DNA from: Thiobacillus sp.
Lineage (GTDB): Bacteria > Pseudomonadota > Gammaproteobacteria > Burkholderiales > Thiobacillaceae
Direction of reading: 5' to 3'
Length of the DNA: 41,382 nucleotides
Assembly: GCA_024709685.1 (NCBI GenBank)
Contig: JANJWF010000019.1
Coordinates: forward strand, 1 to 41,382
Every line of letters starts with the position of its first letter. Position 1 is the stretch's first letter. The position numbers and the translations under genes are program-made. Positions 1-8,941 of the stretch are shown here, one piece after another. The notes beneath the pieces are model-generated. The model ran no database searches. It was not told the origin of the DNA and saw only the letters and a list, made by a program, of their open reading frames with translations.

Positions 1-1
1 C

Positions 2-913
2 CATCTGGCGGCTGACGTGCGCCCGCTGGTGCGACTGTCGCTGCAGGTCATCGCCGAACAGAACGGCCGTCGCGAACAGGGCAGCGGCGGCGGCGGCGGG
101 CGTTTCGATTACGCCTACTTCACCGACGACATTCTGGAAAAATACGCCCGTCAGGCGGTACATCAGGCCACCGTCAATCTCGACGCGCGCCCGGCACCCG
201 CCGGCAGCATGACCGTCGTGCTGGGCTCCGGCTGGCCCGGCATCCTGTTGCACGAGGCGATCGGCCACGGGCTGGAGGGCGACTTCAACCGCAAGGGCAG
301 TTCGGCATTCTCCGGCCGCATCGGCGAGCGTGTCGCCGCCCCCGGCGTCACGGTGATCGACGACGGCACCATCCCGCAGCGCCGCGGCTCACTCAACATC
401 GACGACGAAGGCAATCCCACCCAGCGCACCATGCTGATCGAGGACGGCATCCTCACCGGCTACATGCAGGACATGATGAATGCGCGCCTGATGGGCATGC
501 CGATCACCGGCAACGCGCGGCGCGAATCGTATGCGCACCTCACCATGCCGCGCATGACCAACACCCTCATGCTCGCCGGCGACAGGAATCCGCACGAGAT
601 CATCGCCTCGGTGAAGAACGGCCTCTACGCCGTCAACTTCGGCGGCGGCCAGGTCGACATCACCAGCGGCAAGTTCGTGTTCTCCGCCGCCGAGGCCTAC
701 ATGATCGAAGACGGCAAGATCACCTACCCGGTCAAAGGCGCGACGTTGATCGGCAACGGGCCCGAAGTGCTGACGCGCGTGTCGATGATCGGCAACGACA
801 TGGAGATGGATTCCGGCGTGGGCACCTGCGGCAAGGAAGGGCAGAGCGTGCCCGTCGGCGTCGGGCAGCCGACGCTCAGGATCGACGGCCTGACAGTGGG
901 CGGGACGGCGTAG
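2..913 (+). CDS. tldD: TldD metalloprotease, C-terminal part (5' end outside window)
   Basis: This is the C-terminal two thirds or so of TldD, a zinc metalloprotease that works with TldE/PmbA on small peptides (microcin maturation, CcdA turnover in E. coli). The reading frame is open from base 2, so the start lies upstream; the GTG at 17 is only an internal codon. Seen directly: the HExxxH metal site (HEAIGH) near residue 84 of the fragment, followed by [19 protein letters not shown], and near the C-terminus the conserved GTCGKEGQ segment, whose cysteine is the third zinc ligand in the family. It ends at TAG 911-913, nine bases from the convergent gene behind it. No partner tldE is in the window. 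Identification is secure. Confidence 0.95.
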
Positions 914-922
914 ACGAAAAAG

Positions 923-2131
923 TCAGCCTTCGAACTGGAGGCGCACCCCGAGCTTGCTGAAGCTGTAGAAGTCCAGCGTCGATTCGGTTCTTTCGTATAT
1001 CACGCCGATCTGCGGCCGATAGCCCCCGATGCGCAGCGAGGGCCGCAGCAGGTCGAGGCTTGCCACGTAGCGCGTGTCGCGGCGCCGGTCGCCGAAGAAG
1101 GGATCCATCGCCTGGTAGTTCCGAATGCCGGCGGAGCCGTACAGCGTGAATCGCGTATCCCAGGTGTCGGACGGCCACACCACCGTGCCGCCGATGCTGC
1201 CGCCGTCATACGAATACGCTGCTGCGCTGGCCTTTGCCCGCTCCAGCGTCGCCTCGTTGCTGAACGCAAGCCCGAGCGCCGGCGGGTAGGCCAGCCTGCC
1301 GATCAGGAACAGGTTGTGCGAATCGAGGTTCGGCGACTGCGGCACCTGCAGCCTGCCGAATTTGAATTCTCCCATCAGGCGGGAGCCCTCCGACGGCGCC
1401 ATGGCGGCGAGCGCGCCCACGTACGGAAAGCGGTAGAGGGTGTCTCCGCCCAGCCGGGCGCCTTCGAAGCCCGCCTTCGCCTTGAGCCAGGGCACGCCCG
1501 GCACCGCCTGCGCGAGGCCGGCGTCGCCGGTGAGGCGGTCGAAGGGGGATGCGGGAAAGTCTGAATAGGAGGCGGTGAAGAAGGCCGTGGTGCGGCGATT
1601 GTCGTCGAGCGGCCGATAGCCGCGCACCGACAGCCTGACGCCGTACACGGGGTCGTTGTCCACGGGCTCCACCACCCGCAGCGTCTGCCCGCCGATGAAC
1701 ACCTCGCGGCTGTTGGTGAAGTTGCGCGGGTTCGAGTCGCTGACCATGCCGACGGAAAACCTGACGTAGCCCGTCGCCATGTCGATTTCGTCGAGGTAGA
1801 CGCGGATGTTCTCGCCGACCCGCCACGGCAGTTCCGGCAGCGCCAGCACCTCGCGAAACAGCTGCTCCGAGCGCTCGTAGTCCTGCATCAGGTACAGCGC
1901 ACGGGCGAGCTCCAGCTTGACCCGCGGGCTGCCGGTCTCGGCCAGCAGGCGCTCGAAGATCGTCGCCGCCCGCATCGGATCGCCCGCGTTCAGGGCCTCG
2001 ACGCCGTGGAGGAAGCGCGCCTGGTACTGGCTATTGCTTGCCTGGACCGTGCCGGCCGGCGTGTCTTCGGCGAGCGCCGGGCCCGCCTGCAGCGCAAGGA
2101 TGCAGGCCAGCGCTGCCGCGCAGCGCCGCAT
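923..2131 (-). CDS. Slam-type surface lipoprotein assembly modifier
   Basis: A 402-residue outer-membrane protein with a signal peptide (MRRCAAALACILALQAGPALA), a TPR-like helical N-terminal region (about residues 35-120) and a C-terminal part of alternating hydrophobic/polar strands ending in LGVRLQFEG, as in a beta-barrel. The segment around VGMVSDSNPRNFTNS resembles the start of the DUF560/Slam barrel. Slam proteins move lipoproteins across the outer membrane to the cell surface. The start at 2131 is chosen because it directly begins the signal peptide and lies one base after the stop of the upstream lipoprotein gene (TGACATG), so the two are probably translationally coupled; an in-frame start at 2164 would lie inside that gene. 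It is somewhat shorter than neisserial Slam. The pairing with a TbpB-like lipoprotein strengthens the call. Iron or haem use is not shown. Confidence 0.75.
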   Translation of the reverse strand: MRRCAAALACILALQAGPALAEDTPAGTVQASNSQYQARFLHGVEALNAGDPMRAATIFERLLAETGSPRVKLELARALYLMQDYERSEQLFREVLALPELPWRVGENIRVYLDEIDMATGYVRFSVGMVSDSNPRNFTNSREVFIGGQTLRVVEPVDNDPVYGVRLSVRGYRPLDDNRRTTAFFTASYSDFPASPFDRLTGDAGLAQAVPGVPWLKAKAGFEGARLGGDTLYRFPYVGALAAMAPSEGSRLMGEFKFGRLQVPQSPNLDSHNLFLIGRLAYPPALGLAFSNEATLERAKASAAAYSYDGGSIGGTVVWPSDTWDTRFTLYGSAGIRNYQAMDPFFGDRRRDTRYVASLDLLRPSLRIGGYRPQIGVIYERTESTLDFYSFSKLGVRLQFEG

Positions 2132-2132
2132 G

Positions 2133-3056
2133 TCAGGGGGTCGTCTGCGTGGCGCCGTATGCACCCGAATAGGTCTCGACGCTGGTCCCTGCAGCCGGGA
2201 GGACGAAGACGCCGCCCAGTTCTACCGCACCGGGGCCGTAGAACTGGCCGGTCGACCCGCCCGTAAGGCCGCTGGTAGTAGTCAGTGTCCCGCTGAACGT
2301 GCCATTGCCCGCAATGTTCAGCGTGCCGGTCAGGTCCAGGGTTCCTTTAGAGACAAATGCCTGGTTTTGCCATACGTCGGGTGAGATTCTGGTGCCGGAA
2401 GTCGTGAGACCCAATGTCTTGGCGTCGAAATTGGCGGTTACGGTCAGGTTTGCAAGCACGGTATTGCCGTTTCCAGCCGTGTCGACATAGCTGCCGACGA
2501 CCTCGCCGTAGAATGTGGCGCTGCCGGTCCGGTTGAAGTTGGCCGTGGGGCTGCCTACGCTCATGACGCCGACGGTCCGGTTGGTGGAAGTCAGGCCATT
2601 TTCCCACACGCCGAAACTCTGATAGTTCCATGCCGTGCTCTTGGGGTTGGATACAACTGCCCGGGTGGTGAGATCCAAGGCTGTCACGAAATCCGGGTCT
2701 GCTGTCAGGTTAGAGGTCAGACCGCCCGCCAGCCGCCCGTTCGAATTGATGGATACGCTTGTCAAGGCACCATTATCAAACGAGAAGACTGCGCTGGTCT
2801 GCGGATTCGGAGAATCCTGGACAATGTCGTCGAAAGACGTCACGACGCCGTTTACGTGGGTGTAGTTGGCGTACTTGCCCAGGCCTTTGGCTTCGATGTT
2901 CGTCGTGCCCTGCACGTCGCTCCACTTCGTGAACGGAGTGGTCTGCACGACAACCCCGGTGGGCGCGGCCACGGTGCCGCCCCCGCCGCCGCCGCAGGCT
3001 GACAGCATCAATGAAGCGATCAGAAAAGCAGCGCCCTTGCCGTATTCTGTTTGCAT
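2133..3056 (-). CDS. Slam-dependent TbpB-like surface lipoprotein
   Basis: A 307-residue predicted lipoprotein. Signal peptide and lipobox are clear: hydrophobic stretch then LSAC with Cys21, followed by a run of six glycines that would form a flexible tether. The rest is rich in Thr, Ser, Asn and Gly and beta-like, and carries the hallmark FYGPGAVELGGVF (about residues 272-284) of the transferrin-binding-protein-B-like beta-barrel domain found in Slam cargo. The ATG at 3056 is preceded by a strong purine-rich ribosome site (GGGGGAAGGA). It sits directly upstream of the Slam-type gene on the same strand, so the pair looks like exporter plus substrate. Whether it binds a metal, haem or a host/environment protein cannot be read from the sequence. 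Confidence 0.75.
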   Translation of the reverse strand: MQTEYGKGAAFLIASLMLSACGGGGGGTVAAPTGVVVQTTPFTKWSDVQGTTNIEAKGLGKYANYTHVNGVVTSFDDIVQDSPNPQTSAVFSFDNGALTSVSINSNGRLAGGLTSNLTADPDFVTALDLTTRAVVSNPKSTAWNYQSFGVWENGLTSTNRTVGVMSVGSPTANFNRTGSATFYGEVVGSYVDTAGNGNTVLANLTVTANFDAKTLGLTTSGTRISPDVWQNQAFVSKGTLDLTGTLNIAGNGTFSGTLTTTSGLTGGSTGQFYGPGAVELGGVFVLPAAGTSVETYSGAYGATQTTP

Positions 3057-3092
3057 GATGTCCTTCCCCCTTTGGCTATGTATCTCAGCCAG

Positions 3093-3098
3093 ACTATA
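3093..3098 (-). promoter_or_regulatory. Possible -10 box for the lipoprotein-Slam operon
   Basis: TATAGT on the minus strand lies about 36 bases upstream of the lipoprotein ATG and fits a sigma-70 -10 box. No convincing -35 and no recognisable Fur box was seen, so this is a weak call. Confidence 0.3.
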
Positions 3099-3232
3099 GA
3101 TCAAACATTGAACGGGGTCGGACGCGCCACATTGCCGGTTTGGCCGGAATGCCGGCGCCGTTTTGCTTGATGGGATGCGCATGCTGGCCGAAAGACGTGT
3201 TGCGGTGATGGGACCGGCAGTCCTCTCGGCGC

Positions 3233-3262
3233 TTGGCGTGATCCGCCCGCTTTTGGTAGACT
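3233..3262 (+). promoter_or_regulatory. Candidate aroG promoter
   Basis: TTGGCG (3233-3238) and TAGACT (3257-3262) are separated by 18 bases, a reasonable sigma-70 arrangement. It would start RNA at about 3269, just before the leader peptide codons. Read by eye; no start site has been measured. Confidence 0.5.
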
Positions 3263-3269
3263 GCAATGC

Positions 3270-3338
3270 ATGATCCGTGCCGCAATGTTCTTTTTTAGCC
3301 ATTTTTATCCCACGCCGCAGGCGGTCGGGAGGCGCTGA
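3270..3338 (+). CDS. Phe-rich leader peptide of the aroG attenuator
   Basis: A short open frame of 22 codons, ATG 3270 to TGA 3336-3338, reading MIRAAMFFFSHFYPTPQAVGRR. A second ATG at 3285 gives a 17-residue version that begins MFFFSHFYP. Four Phe codons and one Tyr codon fall within seven codons (3288-3308), just ahead of an intrinsic terminator and aroG. This is the layout of the pheA and pheST leader peptides of enteric bacteria, where a ribosome stalled at Phe codons prevents termination. No strong ribosome site is visible before either ATG, and with the proposed promoter the message would be nearly leaderless for the first ATG. The role is inferred from the arrangement; the peptide itself probably has no function. 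Confidence 0.7.
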   Translation: MIRAAMFFFSHFYPTPQAVGRR

Positions 3339-3360
3339 GACGAACAGCACGGCCTTCACG

Positions 3361-3389
3361 AAAACCGCCAGCCTGCTGGCGGTTTTTTT
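3361..3389 (+). terminator. Attenuator terminator upstream of aroG
   Basis: A perfect 11-bp stem (3361-3371 with 3376-3386), a 4-base loop and a seven-T run (3383-3389) form a strong intrinsic terminator 42 bases before the aroG ATG. The upstream segment GGCGGT (3320-3325) can pair with ACCGCC (3364-3369) of the terminator arm, and CGCC (3313-3316) can in turn pair with GGCG (3320-3323). Those are the 1:2, 2:3 and 3:4 pairings expected of a ribosome-controlled attenuator. Confidence 0.8.
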
Positions 3390-3431
3390 GTTCAAGCCGC
3401 GGCGGGCGACACCAACGAACGGAGCCTGACA

Positions 3432-4508
3432 ATGACCGCCATCCGAACCGACGACACTCGCATCGAGCAGAGCGGCGAACTGCTGTCCCCGATTCAGCTC
3501 ATGCGCGAGTTGCGGGCCAGCGACGCCGTGCACGCGCACGTCGCGCATGCACGCAGCGCGATCCATGACGTACTGCGCGGCGCAGACGACCGCATGTTCA
3601 TCGTCGTCGGCCCGTGTTCGATCCACGACCCGGCTGCCGCGCTGGATTACGCAAAGAAGCTGAAGCCGCTGGCCGACGAACTCGCACACGATCTCATCGT
3701 CGTGATGCGGGTGTATTTCGAGAAACCGCGCACCACCGTGGGCTGGAAGGGGCTGATCAACGACCCGCACCTCGACGAAAGCTTCGATATCAACGAGGGC
3801 CTGCGGCTGGCGCGCAAATTGTTGCTGGAGATCAACGAAATCGGCCTGCCGTGCGCGACCGAGTTTCTCGACCTGATTTCGCCGCAATACATCGCCGACC
3901 TGGTGAGCTGGGGGGCGATCGGCGCGCGCACCACCGAGTCGCAGTCGCACCGGCAGCTTGCGTCGGGGCTGTCTTGCCCGGTGGGCTTCAAGAACGGCAC
4001 CGATGGCAGCCTGCGTATCGCGGTGGACGCGATCAAGGCGGCGGCGGCGCGCCACCATTTCATCTCGGTCACCAAGTCGGGCCACGTCGGCGTGTTCAGC
4101 ACTTCCGGCAACGAGGACACCCACGTCATCCTGCGTGGCGGCAAGGCGCCGAACTTCGACGCGGCGAGCGTCAGCCTGGCCTGCGGCGAACTGGCGGCGG
4201 CAGGACTCCGCCAGCAGTTGATGATCGATTTCTCGCATGCCAATGCGAGCAAGCAGTACCAGCGCCAGCTCGATGTCGCAGCCGATGTCGCGGCACAGGT
4301 GGCGGGCGGCGACACCCGCATCATCGGCGCGATGGTCGAAAGCCACCTCAATCCGGGGCGCCAGGATCTGGTCGTGGGGCAGGCACTGGAGTACGCCAGG
4401 TCGATCACCGATGCCTGCATCGGTTGGGACGATACCGTTCCGCTGCTGCGATTGCTGGCCGATGCGGTGAAAAAACGCCGGCTGGCCGCGCCGGCGGACG
4501 AGGAATAA
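3432..4508 (+). CDS. aroG: 3-deoxy-7-phosphoheptulonate (DAHP) synthase, class I
   Basis: This enzyme condenses phosphoenolpyruvate and erythrose 4-phosphate to DAHP, the first step of the shikimate pathway to Phe, Tyr and Trp. It is 358 residues, close to E. coli AroG/AroF/AroH (about 350). Family motifs are all present: GPCSIHD (60-66, with the metal-binding cysteine), KPRTTVGWKG, TTESQSHRQLASGLS, GFKNGTDG and SHANASKQ. The ATG at 3432 has a GGAG site a few bases upstream. Expression is probably attenuated by Phe-tRNA supply through the leader and terminator in front. Which aromatic amino acid inhibits the enzyme itself cannot be decided by eye, but the Phe-rich leader favours a phenylalanine-linked isoenzyme. 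The gene is followed by the SRP RNA with no terminator seen between them. Confidence 0.95.
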   Translation: MTAIRTDDTRIEQSGELLSPIQLMRELRASDAVHAHVAHARSAIHDVLRGADDRMFIVVGPCSIHDPAAALDYAKKLKPLADELAHDLIVVMRVYFEKPRTTVGWKGLINDPHLDESFDINEGLRLARKLLLEINEIGLPCATEFLDLISPQYIADLVSWGAIGARTTESQSHRQLASGLSCPVGFKNGTDGSLRIAVDAIKAAAARHHFISVTKSGHVGVFSTSGNEDTHVILRGGKAPNFDAASVSLACGELAAAGLRQQLMIDFSHANASKQYQRQLDVAADVAAQVAGGDTRIIGAMVESHLNPGRQDLVVGQALEYARSITDACIGWDDTVPLLRLLADAVKKRRLAAPADEE

Positions 4509-4522
4509 ACCTGCTTCCGGGT

Positions 4523-4528
4523 TAAAAT
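4523..4528 (+). promoter_or_regulatory. -10 box of the SRP RNA gene
   Basis: TAAAAT ends 5 bases before the predicted 5' end of the SRP RNA (4534), the right distance for a -10 box. The matching -35 region overlaps the end of aroG and is poor. Confidence 0.5.
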
Positions 4529-4533
4529 GCAGG

Positions 4534-4630
4534 TGGCGGGCCTCCCCGCATGGCTAAATCGTGAATCGGGTCAGGTCCGGAAGGAAGCAGCCACAGCGAT
4601 CGATGCCAGTGCCGGGGCTCTGGCTCGCCA
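4534..4630 (+). ncRNA. ffs: Signal recognition particle 4.5S RNA
   Basis: About 97 nucleotides with the invariant SRP domain IV core GGTCAGGTCCGGAAGGAAGC followed by AGCCA, and the opposite strand element AGTGCCGGGG. The ends pair (TGGCGGGCC with GGCTCGCCA), closing the single long hairpin of a bacterial small SRP RNA. With Ffh it targets nascent membrane proteins to FtsY and the Sec translocon. The position just upstream of dnaX is common in proteobacteria. Exact ends were set from helix closure and may shift by a few bases. Confidence 0.93.
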
Positions 4631-4749
4631 TTCCTGGCTGCATTCGGGCAGGCTCTATTTGATCAGATCGGGCGTTGTCGCGCCTTGCGTACTTACGGTA
4701 CTGTTTGCGGCGCTCCGCCTTGTCTCCGCCCGAATGCAGCCAGGAATGG
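4628..4749 (+). repeat. 22-bp perfect inverted repeat between ffs and dnaX
   Basis: Bases 4628-4649 are an exact reverse complement of 4728-4749, with 78 bases between. AGGC (4650-4653) can also pair with GCCT (4717-4720), extending the stem past a bulge. The left arm overlaps the last three bases of the SRP RNA and the right arm ends 21 bases before the dnaX ATG. It could be a tiny MITE-like insertion or a large RNA hairpin that ends or processes the ffs transcript. No target-site duplication is obvious. Confidence 0.85.
4675..4704 (+). promoter_or_regulatory. Possible dnaX promoter inside the inverted-repeat loop
   Basis: TTGTCG (4675-4680) and TACTGT (4699-4704), 18 bases apart, are a plausible sigma-70 pair. 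If used, the dnaX message would contain only the right arm of the inverted repeat. Weak, by-eye call. Confidence 0.3.
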
Positions 4750-4770
4750 TTGCAGCCACCCATCACATTC

Positions 4771-6501
4771 ATGACTGACCTCTTTGGCGATTCGGCATCC
4801 CCCGCACTTGCGCTGGCGCGCAAATGGCGGCCGCGCGCGTTTGCCGATCTCAAGGGGCAGGAGCATGTGGTGCAGGCGCTCTCCAACGCGCTGACCCAGG
4901 GCCGGCTGCATCACGCCTACTTGCTGACCGGTACGCGCGGGGTCGGCAAGACCACGCTGGCGCGCATTCTCGCCAAGTGCCTCAACTGCGAGACCGGCGT
5001 CACTGCGACACCTTGCGGTACATGCTCCGCCTGCACCCAGATCGACGCCGGGCGCTTCGTCGACCTGCTCGAGCTCGATGCGGCGTCGAATACCGGTGTC
5101 GACAACATGCGCGAGGTGCTCGACAACGCGCAGTACGCGCCGACGGTGGGACGCTACAAGGTCTACATCATCGACGAAGTGCACATGCTGTCGAAGCCGG
5201 CGTTCAACTCCATGCTGAAGACGCTGGAAGAGCCGCCGGCGCACGTCAAGTTCATCCTCGCCACCACTGATCCGCAAAAGATTCCGGTGACGGTGCTGTC
5301 GCGCTGCCTGCAGTTCAACCTCAAGCCGATGCCGCCCGCGCTGGTCGCGCAGCACCTGGGCGAGGTGCTGGCGCAGGAAAATGTCGACGCCGAGCCCGCC
5401 GCGCTCAACCTGCTGGCACGCGCCGCCGCCGGCAGCATGCGCGATGCGCTGTCGCTCACCGACCAGGCCATTGCCTACGGCAGCGGGCGCATCGAGGCCG
5501 CGGGCGTCGAGGCCATGCTCGGCACGGTGCGGCGCGACTACCTGTTCGACCTGCTCGATGCGCTGGCGGCGCACGACGGTGATGCGCTGCTGGCGCAGGC
5601 GCGGCAGCTGGCCGAGCGCGGCATTGCCTTCGACGCGGCGCTGCAGGATCTGGGCAGTTTGCTCACCCAGCTGGCCTTGCTGCTGCACGCGCCGGGCACG
5701 GTGGAAGCCGGCATGGATGCCGAGCGCATGCAGGCTGCTGCGGCGCAACTGGAGGCAGAAACCGTACAGCTGTATTACCAGATCGCGCTGAACGGCCGCC
5801 GCGACCTGCCGTATGCGCCGGACGAATTTTCCGGCTTTTGCATGACGCTCTTGCGCATGCTGGCATTCGCTCCCGGCTCGGCGGGCGGCCCGTCACGGCC
5901 TGCGGCAACGGCACGTCCGGCACCCGCCCCGCGCACCGAACCGGCGCCGCGTGCCCCGGCACCCGCTACCGTACGCGGCACCGAACCTGAGCCCCGCATG
6001 CCTCCTGCGCCCGCGCCGGCCGCTGCGCCGGTTGCCGCGGCCGCGCCAGCTGAACCGCTTGCGCCACCGGCTTTCGCCCCCACGCTGACGGTATCCGAGC
6101 CTGGCCCGCGCGCGGCCTGGGATTGGCTCGCGGTCGTCGCCGAACTGCGCCTTGGCGGCATGGCCAAGATGCTCGCAGACCACTGCGAACTGGCGGCACA
6201 GGCGGGCGATACGGTGACGCTGAGGGTGGGCGAGGCGCACAAGCACCTGCTCGACCGCACCTACCAGGACCGGCTGGTTGGGGCGCTGCGCGACAAATAT
6301 GGCGCGATGCTCGACGTGCGCTTCGAGATCGGCGCCGCCGCCGACAAGACGCCGCAACAGGTGCGCACCCGCATCAGGGAGGCGCGCCTGGCCGAGGCCG
6401 AAGCCGCCATCGAATCGGATCCATTCGTGCGCGAGCTGGTCGACCATTTTGGCGGCCAGGTCGACGCCGCGTCCATACAGCCATTAGGAGAAGCAACATG
6501 A
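4771..6501 (+). CDS. dnaX: DNA polymerase III subunit tau (DnaX)
   Basis: The 576-residue clamp-loader ATPase of the replicative polymerase, which loads the beta clamp and links polymerase cores to DnaB. Seen: start of the AAA+ domain ([15 protein letters not shown], 16-30), Walker A GTRGVGKT (54-61), zinc cysteines C73, C82, C85 and C88, Walker B IIDEVHML (133-140), and sensor SRC before QFNLK. A Pro/Ala-rich linker (about residues 370-455) leads to a C-terminal tau-specific domain. I chose ATG 4771, just before the conserved domain; an in-frame start at 4675 lies within the inverted repeat region. No good ribosome site precedes the ATG. I saw no A-rich slippery heptamer near the linker, so an E. 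coli-style frameshifted gamma form is not indicated. The stop overlaps the ybaB start (ATGA). Confidence 0.95.
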
Positions 6502-6824
6502 TCAAGGGCGGCATCGGCAACATGATGAAGCAGGTCCAGCAGATGCAGGAAAACATGGCCAAGATGCAGGCCAAGCTGGCCGAAATCGAGATCGAGGGCG
6601 CCAGCGGCGCCGGCATGGTCAAGGTGGTGATGACCTGCAAGTACGACGTGCGCCGCGTCAGTATCGATCCCAGCCTGATGAGCGATGACAGGGAAATGCT
6701 GGAAGACCTGGTGGCTGCGGCGGTGAACGATGCGGTGCGCAAGGTCGAGTCTACGGTGCAGGAAAAGATGGGCAGCGTGACCGCCGGCCTGCCGATCCCG
6801 CCCGGCATGAAGATGCCGTTCTGA
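6498..6824 (+). CDS. ybaB: Nucleoid-associated protein YbaB/EbfC family
   Basis: A 108-residue dimeric DNA-binding protein of the YbaB/EbfC family. The N-terminal helix ([20 protein letters not shown], then [14 protein letters not shown]) and the C-terminal PPGMKMPF are typical. The start overlaps the dnaX stop by four bases (ATGA) and has a ribosome site (AGGAGAAG) seven bases upstream. It is sandwiched between dnaX and recR as in most proteobacteria, so a link to replication and recombination is usually assumed, although its precise role is not established. Confidence 0.95.
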
Positions 6825-6826
6825 CG

Positions 6827-6921
6827 GACACGGCATGCGCCAGCCCATCCATCCGGAACGGCGCGCCAGCCGTGTCGGCCCGCTCTCCCCATTCCTCACC
6901 AGTCAGGAGAGGGTGAGCGGG
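6827..6921 (+). repeat. Two hairpins between ybaB and recR
   Basis: GACACGGC (6827-6834) pairs with GCCGTGTC (6869-6876), and CCCGCTC (6879-6885) pairs with GAGCGGG (6915-6921). Neither has a T run, so they are not intrinsic terminators. They fill most of the 123-base gap and may affect recR translation or mRNA stability. Confidence 0.5.
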
Positions 6922-6947
6922 ACGGCGCTGCCGCGACGGGGGCATTA

Positions 6948-8941
<1,994 letters not shown>

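Follow-up and report, generated by a model that had tools for sequence, protein, structure and literature searches.

Organization of the aroG locus

The window analysed here, a stretch of 41,382 nucleotides from Thiobacillus sp. (contig JANJWF010000019.1), carries a gene for a class I DAHP synthase, aroG, with a short leader open reading frame (ORF) upstream and an intrinsic terminator (3361-3389) between the two. The original prediction, made from the letters of this sequence, was that aroG is controlled by a leader-peptide attenuator responding to the charging of tRNA-Phe, and not by a repressor. The features of the region, all on the plus strand, are as follows.

3233..3262, + strand: putative promoter, with TTGGCG (3233-3238), an 18-nt spacer and an extended -10 element TGG-TAGACT (TG 3254-3255, hexamer 3257-3262), from the sequence and relatives
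3269..3270, + strand: predicted transcription start at the leader ATG, from the position of the -10 element
3270..3338, + strand: leader peptide ORF, 22 codons plus TGA, MIRAAMFFFSHFYPTPQAVGRR, in a frame kept in relatives
3288..3308, + strand: control codons in the sequence, three for Phe (3288-3296), then Phe (3303-3305) and Tyr (3306-3308)
3313..3316, + strand: arm 1, CGCC, the pairing partner of arm 2 in the minimum-energy fold of the ribosome-free leader
3320..3325, + strand: arm 2, GGCGGT, putative antiterminator 5' arm, its helix extending over 3326-3337, from GGCGG conservation and the fold of 3319-3370
3361..3371, + strand: arm 3, terminator 5' arm, with ACCGCC (3364-3369) common to the antiterminator, from the sequence, RNAalifold and the fold
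3376..3389, + strand: arm 4, terminator 3' arm (3376-3386) and T-run (3383-3389), from the sequence and fold, with core-flanking pairs that covary in relatives
3421..3424, + strand: Shine-Dalgarno-like GGAG of aroG, from the sequence
3432..4508, + strand: aroG, class I DAHP synthase, 358 aa (PF00793, E 1.7e-94)

The sequence confirms the elements named in the original prediction: the seven codons TTC TTT TTT AGC CAT TTT TAT at 3288-3308, four for Phe and one for Tyr; the positions of GGCGGT, CGCC and ACCGCC; and, before aroG, an 11-bp terminator stem, formed by AAAACCGCCAG (3361-3371) with CTGGCGGTTTT (3376-3386), with its seven T. The conserved start of the leader is ATG 3270, and ATG 3285 is missing from most relatives. 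Arm 2 sits within the leader ORF, which ends at TGA 3336-3338, and 24 nt lie between this stop and the AACCGCC that begins at 3363 in the terminator 5' arm. Two hallmarks of an attenuator, a short upstream ORF rich in codons for an end product and an intrinsic terminator before the gene, are present.

Existing family models do not describe this element. No Rfam family matched it at the gathering score, NCBIfam returned nothing for five leader peptides, and Pfam returned nothing for three. A subthreshold similarity to Rfam Hrs13 (RF02631; 20.2 of 52 bits, E 0.0063) covers 3311-3389 of the window and perhaps reflects similarity between terminators.

The neighbouring genes include a bacterial small SRP RNA (4535-4632, plus strand) directly 3' of aroG and 5' of a dnaX-like gene; an SRP-like stretch lies beside aroG in some relatives too. 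Divergent from aroG, on the minus strand at 923-3058, a Slam-like gene (PF04575 SlipAM; TPR below the cut-off) adjoins a lipoprotein-like gene with a TbpB_B_D barrel (PF01298), and these may form a Slam-substrate pair.

The genome to which the window belongs is incomplete (2.55 Mb, 79% complete) and has one class I AroG. A class II DAHP synthase was found in none of 16 members of the genus and in one of 26 genomes overall. The TyrR-type HTH model TIGR04381 had no match in the same number of genomes (the window's own, 15 of the genus and 10 of other families), and the E. coli control was positive. For TyrR-type HTH proteins, this agrees with the earlier claim that a repressor does not control this step.

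Conservation of the leader within the family

Of 100 genomes of the window's family, 93 had an AroG match, and 88 upstream regions were read (30 loci and 58 first copies); the AroG-matching genomes outside these 88 are G007, G034, G052, G070 and G076. An intact leader ORF containing Phe codons is present in 83 of the 88 regions, and a script that required the leader ORF, a -10 element and the terminator recovered 80 of them. Three regions (L070, L072 and L081) have the leader ORF and lack the exact terminator pattern, and one (L083) is cut by the end of its contig, with the 3' part of the leader element visible.

The original prediction had named a terminator kept in relatives without the Phe codons or the frame as the pattern that would speak against it. 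This pattern occurs in two of the 88 regions: L067 (genome G015) retains the terminator and has lost the leader peptide, and in L016 (G017) an extra T in the Phe run (seven rather than six) ends the frame after FFF. For the extra T in L016, natural loss and homopolymer error are indistinguishable. Neither leader nor terminator is found upstream of aroG in L079 and L084. Two second AroG paralogues from members of the genus (L087 and L089; 64% and 62% identical to the window protein), read in addition to the 88 first-copy regions, have no leader either.

The family set used below comprises 80 records; it excludes L016, L067, L083 and seven regions without the terminator pattern. A single Phe codon is found in 3 of these 80 leaders, and the C-terminal part of the leader peptide is well conserved within the genus. 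Removal of near-duplicates left 55 of the 80 records (alignment A1), on which the covariance model R1 was built.

Distribution across the order and beyond

Model R1 matched 132 of 300 genomes of the window's order at E<=0.01, a set whose weak matches include chance terminators. Among 20 lower-ranked R1 matches, five (L188, L189 and L196-L198) had neither AroG nor a leader, and weak matches were rejected as members. A second model, R2, was built from 62 sequences of many families (alignment A2, out of 81 candidates). At E<=1e-6 it found one full-length match in each of 76 of the 300 genomes, spread over 14 of 51 family labels. Each of these matches closely precedes an AroG homologue in the same orientation, and for 21 of the 76, placed by coordinates, the gap between the two is 32-143 nt. 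Since AroG itself is present in 224 of the 300 genomes (at 1e-80) and most AroG-bearing genomes have no R2 match, the element, though common, is by no means universal. A simple-script census of the closest AroG copy found the leader in 12 of 60 genomes, which is an undercount because in some genomes (G190, G147, G356 and G238) the leader precedes another AroG copy.

A class-wide search with R2 at E<=1e-4 gave matches in 18 of 369 genomes: three of the window's order, four others, at E<1e-14, with the match ahead of AroG, and eleven weak matches not followed by AroG. R2 matches at E 1e-5 to 1e-4 outside the window's order, lacking AroG, were rejected as members. In a second order, that of G554, one of the four genomes with a strong match, 11 of 61 genomes have an R2 match, all before AroG, and the leader peptide of one of them (G793) is identical to that of a Lysobacterales bacterium record (L247).

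Named aroG loci were also searched, and 31 of 80 have a full-length R1 match at E<=6e-8. The carriers include Burkholderia, Paraburkholderia, Caballeronia, Cupriavidus, Massilia, Rugamonas, Janthinobacterium and Noviherbaspirillum; one R1-carrying record is titled Devosia (L262). Among the same 80 loci, those of Citrobacter, Serratia, Vibrio, Thauera and Rhodocyclus have no R1 match, and the same is true upstream of the enterobacterial and Vibrio aroG loci as a group.

Aromatic codons and their spacing

Outside the window's family the leader peptides string together Phe, Tyr and often Trp residues, for example MSAKFYFYFFWHLKPLADREG (the Caballeronia and Burkholderia type), MLRTAPYFFWFWYPTLLAAGRK, MQTQRAYFFYFWFSPPAAER and MNAARASFYFWYYFPKPLAEEGLRSP. 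Five of 161 leader records had no parsable leader and were dropped (L148, L165, L236, L205 and L265). In the counts that follow, aromatic content was one of the criteria by which ORFs were picked, and related sequences enter as independent. Among 76 distinct leaders from outside the family, codons before the arm (GGCGG) specify Phe in 76, Tyr in 74 and Trp in 41; in 73 distinct leaders of the family they specify Phe in 73, Tyr in 55 and Trp in 2. Trp is absent from every leader examined in families f8, f11, f13, f20 and f30. The Phe codons TTT and TTC occur 592 times in 151 distinct leaders and the Leu codons TTA and TTG 23 times, which argues that the codons matter and not a U-rich RNA.

In 142 of 150 distinct leaders the last aromatic codon stands 11-20 nt ahead of the arm, the spacing expected for the control codons of an attenuator, with a mode of 14 nt; the window, at 14 nt, has this modal distance. 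Shuffling (500 permutations) placed on average 30 of 150 leaders, and never more than 46, in this range. With the A site of a ribosome on this last aromatic codon, the size of the ribosome footprint would bring the leading edge just before the arm. The stop codon lies 16 nt past the arm start in 99 of 155 leaders, so that a ribosome that has reached the stop would sit over the arm. Of 151 distinct leaders, 142 have GGCGG 15-75 nt ahead of the terminator, as against 35 of 136 control windows. The motif falls in frames 2, 0 and 1 in 127, 9 and 3 leaders, respectively, and because it persists whichever frame a family uses, it is constrained as RNA.

The original prediction had tRNA-Phe as the only signal, and it is here that we depart from it: the aromatic codon nearest to the arm in the window is Tyr (3306-3308), and Tyr and Trp codons are kept widely enough in the leaders that 'aromatic' describes the signal better than 'Phe'. 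It is nevertheless possible, if doubtful, that the same attenuator in practice senses tRNA-Phe alone, the Tyr codon being passive or kept for the sake of the RNA sequence. Four Phe codons against one Tyr codon in the window, and the presence of Phe in every distinct family leader when Tyr is missing from some, would fit this reading. The same can be said of the best solved-structure matches of AroG (PDB 1n8f, 5cks and 1gg1), which include Phe-sensitive DAHP synthase, and of the F-Y-F leader AroR of Corynebacterium glutamicum, which reportedly answers Phe but not Tyr limitation (PMC11802643). Against it, 43 of the 73 distinct family leaders have a Tyr codon 13-15 nt before the arm and 13 have a Phe codon there, and other families retain Tyr and Trp codons.

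Putative promoter and predicted start of the leader mRNA

The -10 hexamer of the window ends at 3262, seven nucleotides upstream of the leader ATG. Given that a start seven nucleotides past the hexamer would coincide with this ATG, the leader mRNA in the window's family is probably leaderless, a prediction that depends on the position of the -10 element. In the family, the gap between the -10 element and the ATG is 6-9 nt in 78 of 80 leaders when the two are picked jointly. When the start is picked without regard to the -10 element, TGnTAnnnT lies 5-9 nt before the ATG in 63 of 80, compared with 0.4% of shuffled upstream sequences. The hexamers in the family are TAGCAT, TAGACT, TACCAT, TAGGAT, TAAACT or TACGAT. 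The attenuators of C. glutamicum are said to be leaderless.

If instead transcription began further upstream, the leader could be translated from a normal ribosome binding site. We consider this unlikely: in the window's family the spacing just described speaks against it, and the same spacing recurs in families f23 (6 of 6), f49 (4 of 4), f4 (4 of 6) and f40 (1 of 1). What speaks for an upstream start is that TGnTAnnnT is found 5-9 nt before the ATG in no leader of nine families (f3, f8, f10, f11, f12, f13, f20, f30 and f32) and, beyond the order, in a single one of 12 leaders, and that a simple sigma-70 scan of positions 1-8000 did not list the promoter of the window.

Four loci (L105 and L107-L109) and the named Burkholderia-type loci have a similar leader with no extended -10 element 5-9 nt before the ATG. 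By eye, these loci show no obvious Shine-Dalgarno site for the leader.

RNA structures and their covariation

The 139-nt leader folds somewhat better than its dinucleotide shuffles (z -2.39, a modest value; 2 of 200 shuffles were as good). In the fold of the ribosome-free leader, arm 1 pairs with arm 2 and the terminator forms. The nascent RNA from 3319 to 3370 gives a single antiterminator hairpin of -25.6 kcal/mol that includes GGCGGU/ACCGCC, and masking of everything up to 3348 leaves the terminator alone to fold. When the full-length RNA is masked to 3318, as if arm 1 were covered, the terminator still wins at equilibrium (-32.0 kcal/mol), so antitermination would have to be kinetic. A simple terminator scan of positions 1-8000 did not list the hairpin at 3361-3389.

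Two pairs that flank the core of the terminator covary across relatives. The outer pair is A:T in 133 sequences and G:C in 11; the inner pair is A:T in 117, G:C in 19, T:A in 2, G:T in 2 and unpaired in 4. Within the 55 family sequences of A1, RNAalifold returned the terminator only, with none of 11 pairs changed on both sides.

For the antiterminator, the partners of different leaders were exchanged. Within the family the leader's own partner was favoured by a mean of 1.42 kcal/mol, in 71% of cases; between families it was better in 7 of 14 and 4 of 14. The nucleotide preceding GGCGG can pair with its partner in 70 of 148 sequences and forms an A.A mismatch in the window. The pair flanking the antiterminator core is T:A in 52 and C:G in 11 sequences, as against T:G in 5 and C:A in 15, with 47 A:A mismatches; a Fisher test gives 7e-4 over all sequences and 0.10 when these are collapsed per family. 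Strong antiterminator covariation, which the swaps and the flanking-pair table do not establish, was rejected. Antiterminator covariation beyond the invariant core is weak: the GGCGG/CCGCC core is kept across three reading frames and is stable in the nascent fold, with little covariation around it. The original prediction had called for a search for covariation in both helices, and it is the terminator that shows it.

A probable ribosome-mediated attenuator of aroG

We consider it very likely that aroG is controlled by this region acting as a ribosome-mediated transcription attenuator. Conserved aromatic codons, the conserved frame, the geometry and the covarying terminator pairs all favour the leader-peptide attenuation that was originally proposed. 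In this scenario, transcription would begin on ATG 3270 or beside it, with translation initiating on the leaderless leader ORF. When charged tRNA-Phe or tRNA-Tyr is scarce, the ribosome would stall with its A site at 3303-3308, where its leading edge would cover arm 1 (CGCC) and stop just short of arm 2. Free arm 2 could then pair with ACCGCC and the stretch preceding it to form the antiterminator, and transcription would enter aroG. When both tRNAs are charged, the ribosome would reach the stop at 3336 and cover arm 2, and the terminator at 3361-3389 would form. In the event that the leader is not translated, arm 1 would pair with arm 2, and transcription would be expected to terminate as well.

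Alternatively, the locus might serve chiefly to make the short terminated RNA or its peptide, which would act in trans as rnTrpL and peTrpL do, and attenuation would be secondary. In favour of this, termination would yield a compact mRNA of some 120 nt that is probably leaderless, Sinorhizobium meliloti provides a precedent with rnTrpL and peTrpL (PMC7298713), and the C-terminal part of the peptide is well conserved within the genus. We nonetheless find a primary role in trans improbable. The residues encoded by the arm shift with the frame of GGCGG between families when the nucleotides stay constant, the aromatic codons keep a fixed distance from the arm, and the element precedes aroG in all 76 R2 matches.

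The chance that a T-rich tract merely happens to lie next to an unrelated terminator is negligible and was rejected on the order-wide R2 matches and the codon and geometry statistics: the unlisted hairpin, the modest fold score and the five lower-ranked R1 matches without AroG and leader would suit it, but the leader ORF is intact in nearly all family regions and the whole element stands before aroG in 76 of 300 genomes of the order.

The aroG attenuator is real, widespread in the genomes compared here and probably ribosome-mediated. A broader proposal is that this leader family, partly leaderless and deeply conserved in the betaproteobacterial order and in a second gammaproteobacterial order, acts as a multi-amino-acid sensor. 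Phe, Tyr and often Trp codons would be read in series, a shortage of any one charged aromatic tRNA would raise entry into the shikimate pathway, and the leader would replace the TyrR/TrpR-type control of isozymes. We see the case for this proposal as evenly balanced. If it is true, the Thiobacillus-type leader lost, or never gained, Trp codons.

The comparison suggests that the first aromatic step is under RNA-based control in many betaproteobacteria, with Burkholderia, Caballeronia, Cupriavidus, Massilia, Janthinobacterium and Thiobacillus among the named carriers. Leaders that mix Phe, Tyr and Trp codons offer a natural series in which to study how one leader may integrate several tRNAs, and the probable leaderless start raises the question of how Shine-Dalgarno-free initiation is coupled to RNA polymerase. 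Genome annotation gains a small ORF and a regulatory RNA family undetected by Rfam, Pfam and NCBIfam.

Comparison with known systems

The attenuators of pheA and pheST in enteric bacteria (Phe_leader) have a Phe-rich leader peptide and a choice between terminator and antiterminator. The element in the window differs in its target gene, and it scores 22.1 bits with Phe_leader (RF01859; E 0.12) against a gathering score of 55, so that membership in this Rfam family was rejected. If Tyr and Trp are indeed sensed, the leaders with all three aromatic residues would represent a variant among ribosome-mediated attenuators.

In E. coli, the DAHP synthase genes are described as being under the TyrR and TrpR repressors (PMC11802643, PMC5343134). 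The enzyme and the pathway step are those of the window, but the regulators are DNA-binding repressors instead.

Attenuation has been proposed before proteobacterial DAHP synthase genes, as it is here. One source lists putative attenuators ahead of operons of the aroF-tyrA type (DAHP synthase-tyrA) of two Vibrio species (PMC1173090); another gives attenuation as predicted or suggested for aroF and aroH of Shewanella and E. coli (PMC2659441). As far as the accessible parts of these papers go, these cases are predictions or older suggestions (Tyr-tRNA for aroF), and they include neither a Phe/Tyr/Trp leader family nor a betaproteobacterial aroG. In the literature that could be consulted, often in part, a leader-peptide attenuator of a betaproteobacterial aroG was not found; the list of B. 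cenocepacia short 5'UTRs that accompanies PMC5688073 may contain an aroG entry.

For a leaderless start, there is a precedent in S. meliloti trpL, where the 5' end of the leader RNA (rnTrpL) is reportedly the ATG of the leader ORF (PMC7298713). That leader differs from the one in the window in having Trp codons and trpE as its target, and in belonging to an alphaproteobacterium.

The closest known system is AroR-aroF of Corynebacterium glutamicum, in which an F-Y-F leader precedes a DAHP synthase gene whose transcription is said to rise under Phe limitation, with Tyr having no effect (Neshat et al. 2014, as cited in PMC11802643 and PMC4046766). The two share Phe and Tyr codons ahead of a DAHP synthase gene and attenuation as the proposed mode of control (PMC4046766), a likeness drawn from description and not from sequence. 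C. glutamicum is an actinobacterium, and its leader has F-Y-F only, whereas that of the window has four Phe codons and one Tyr codon, and many of its relatives have Trp in addition.
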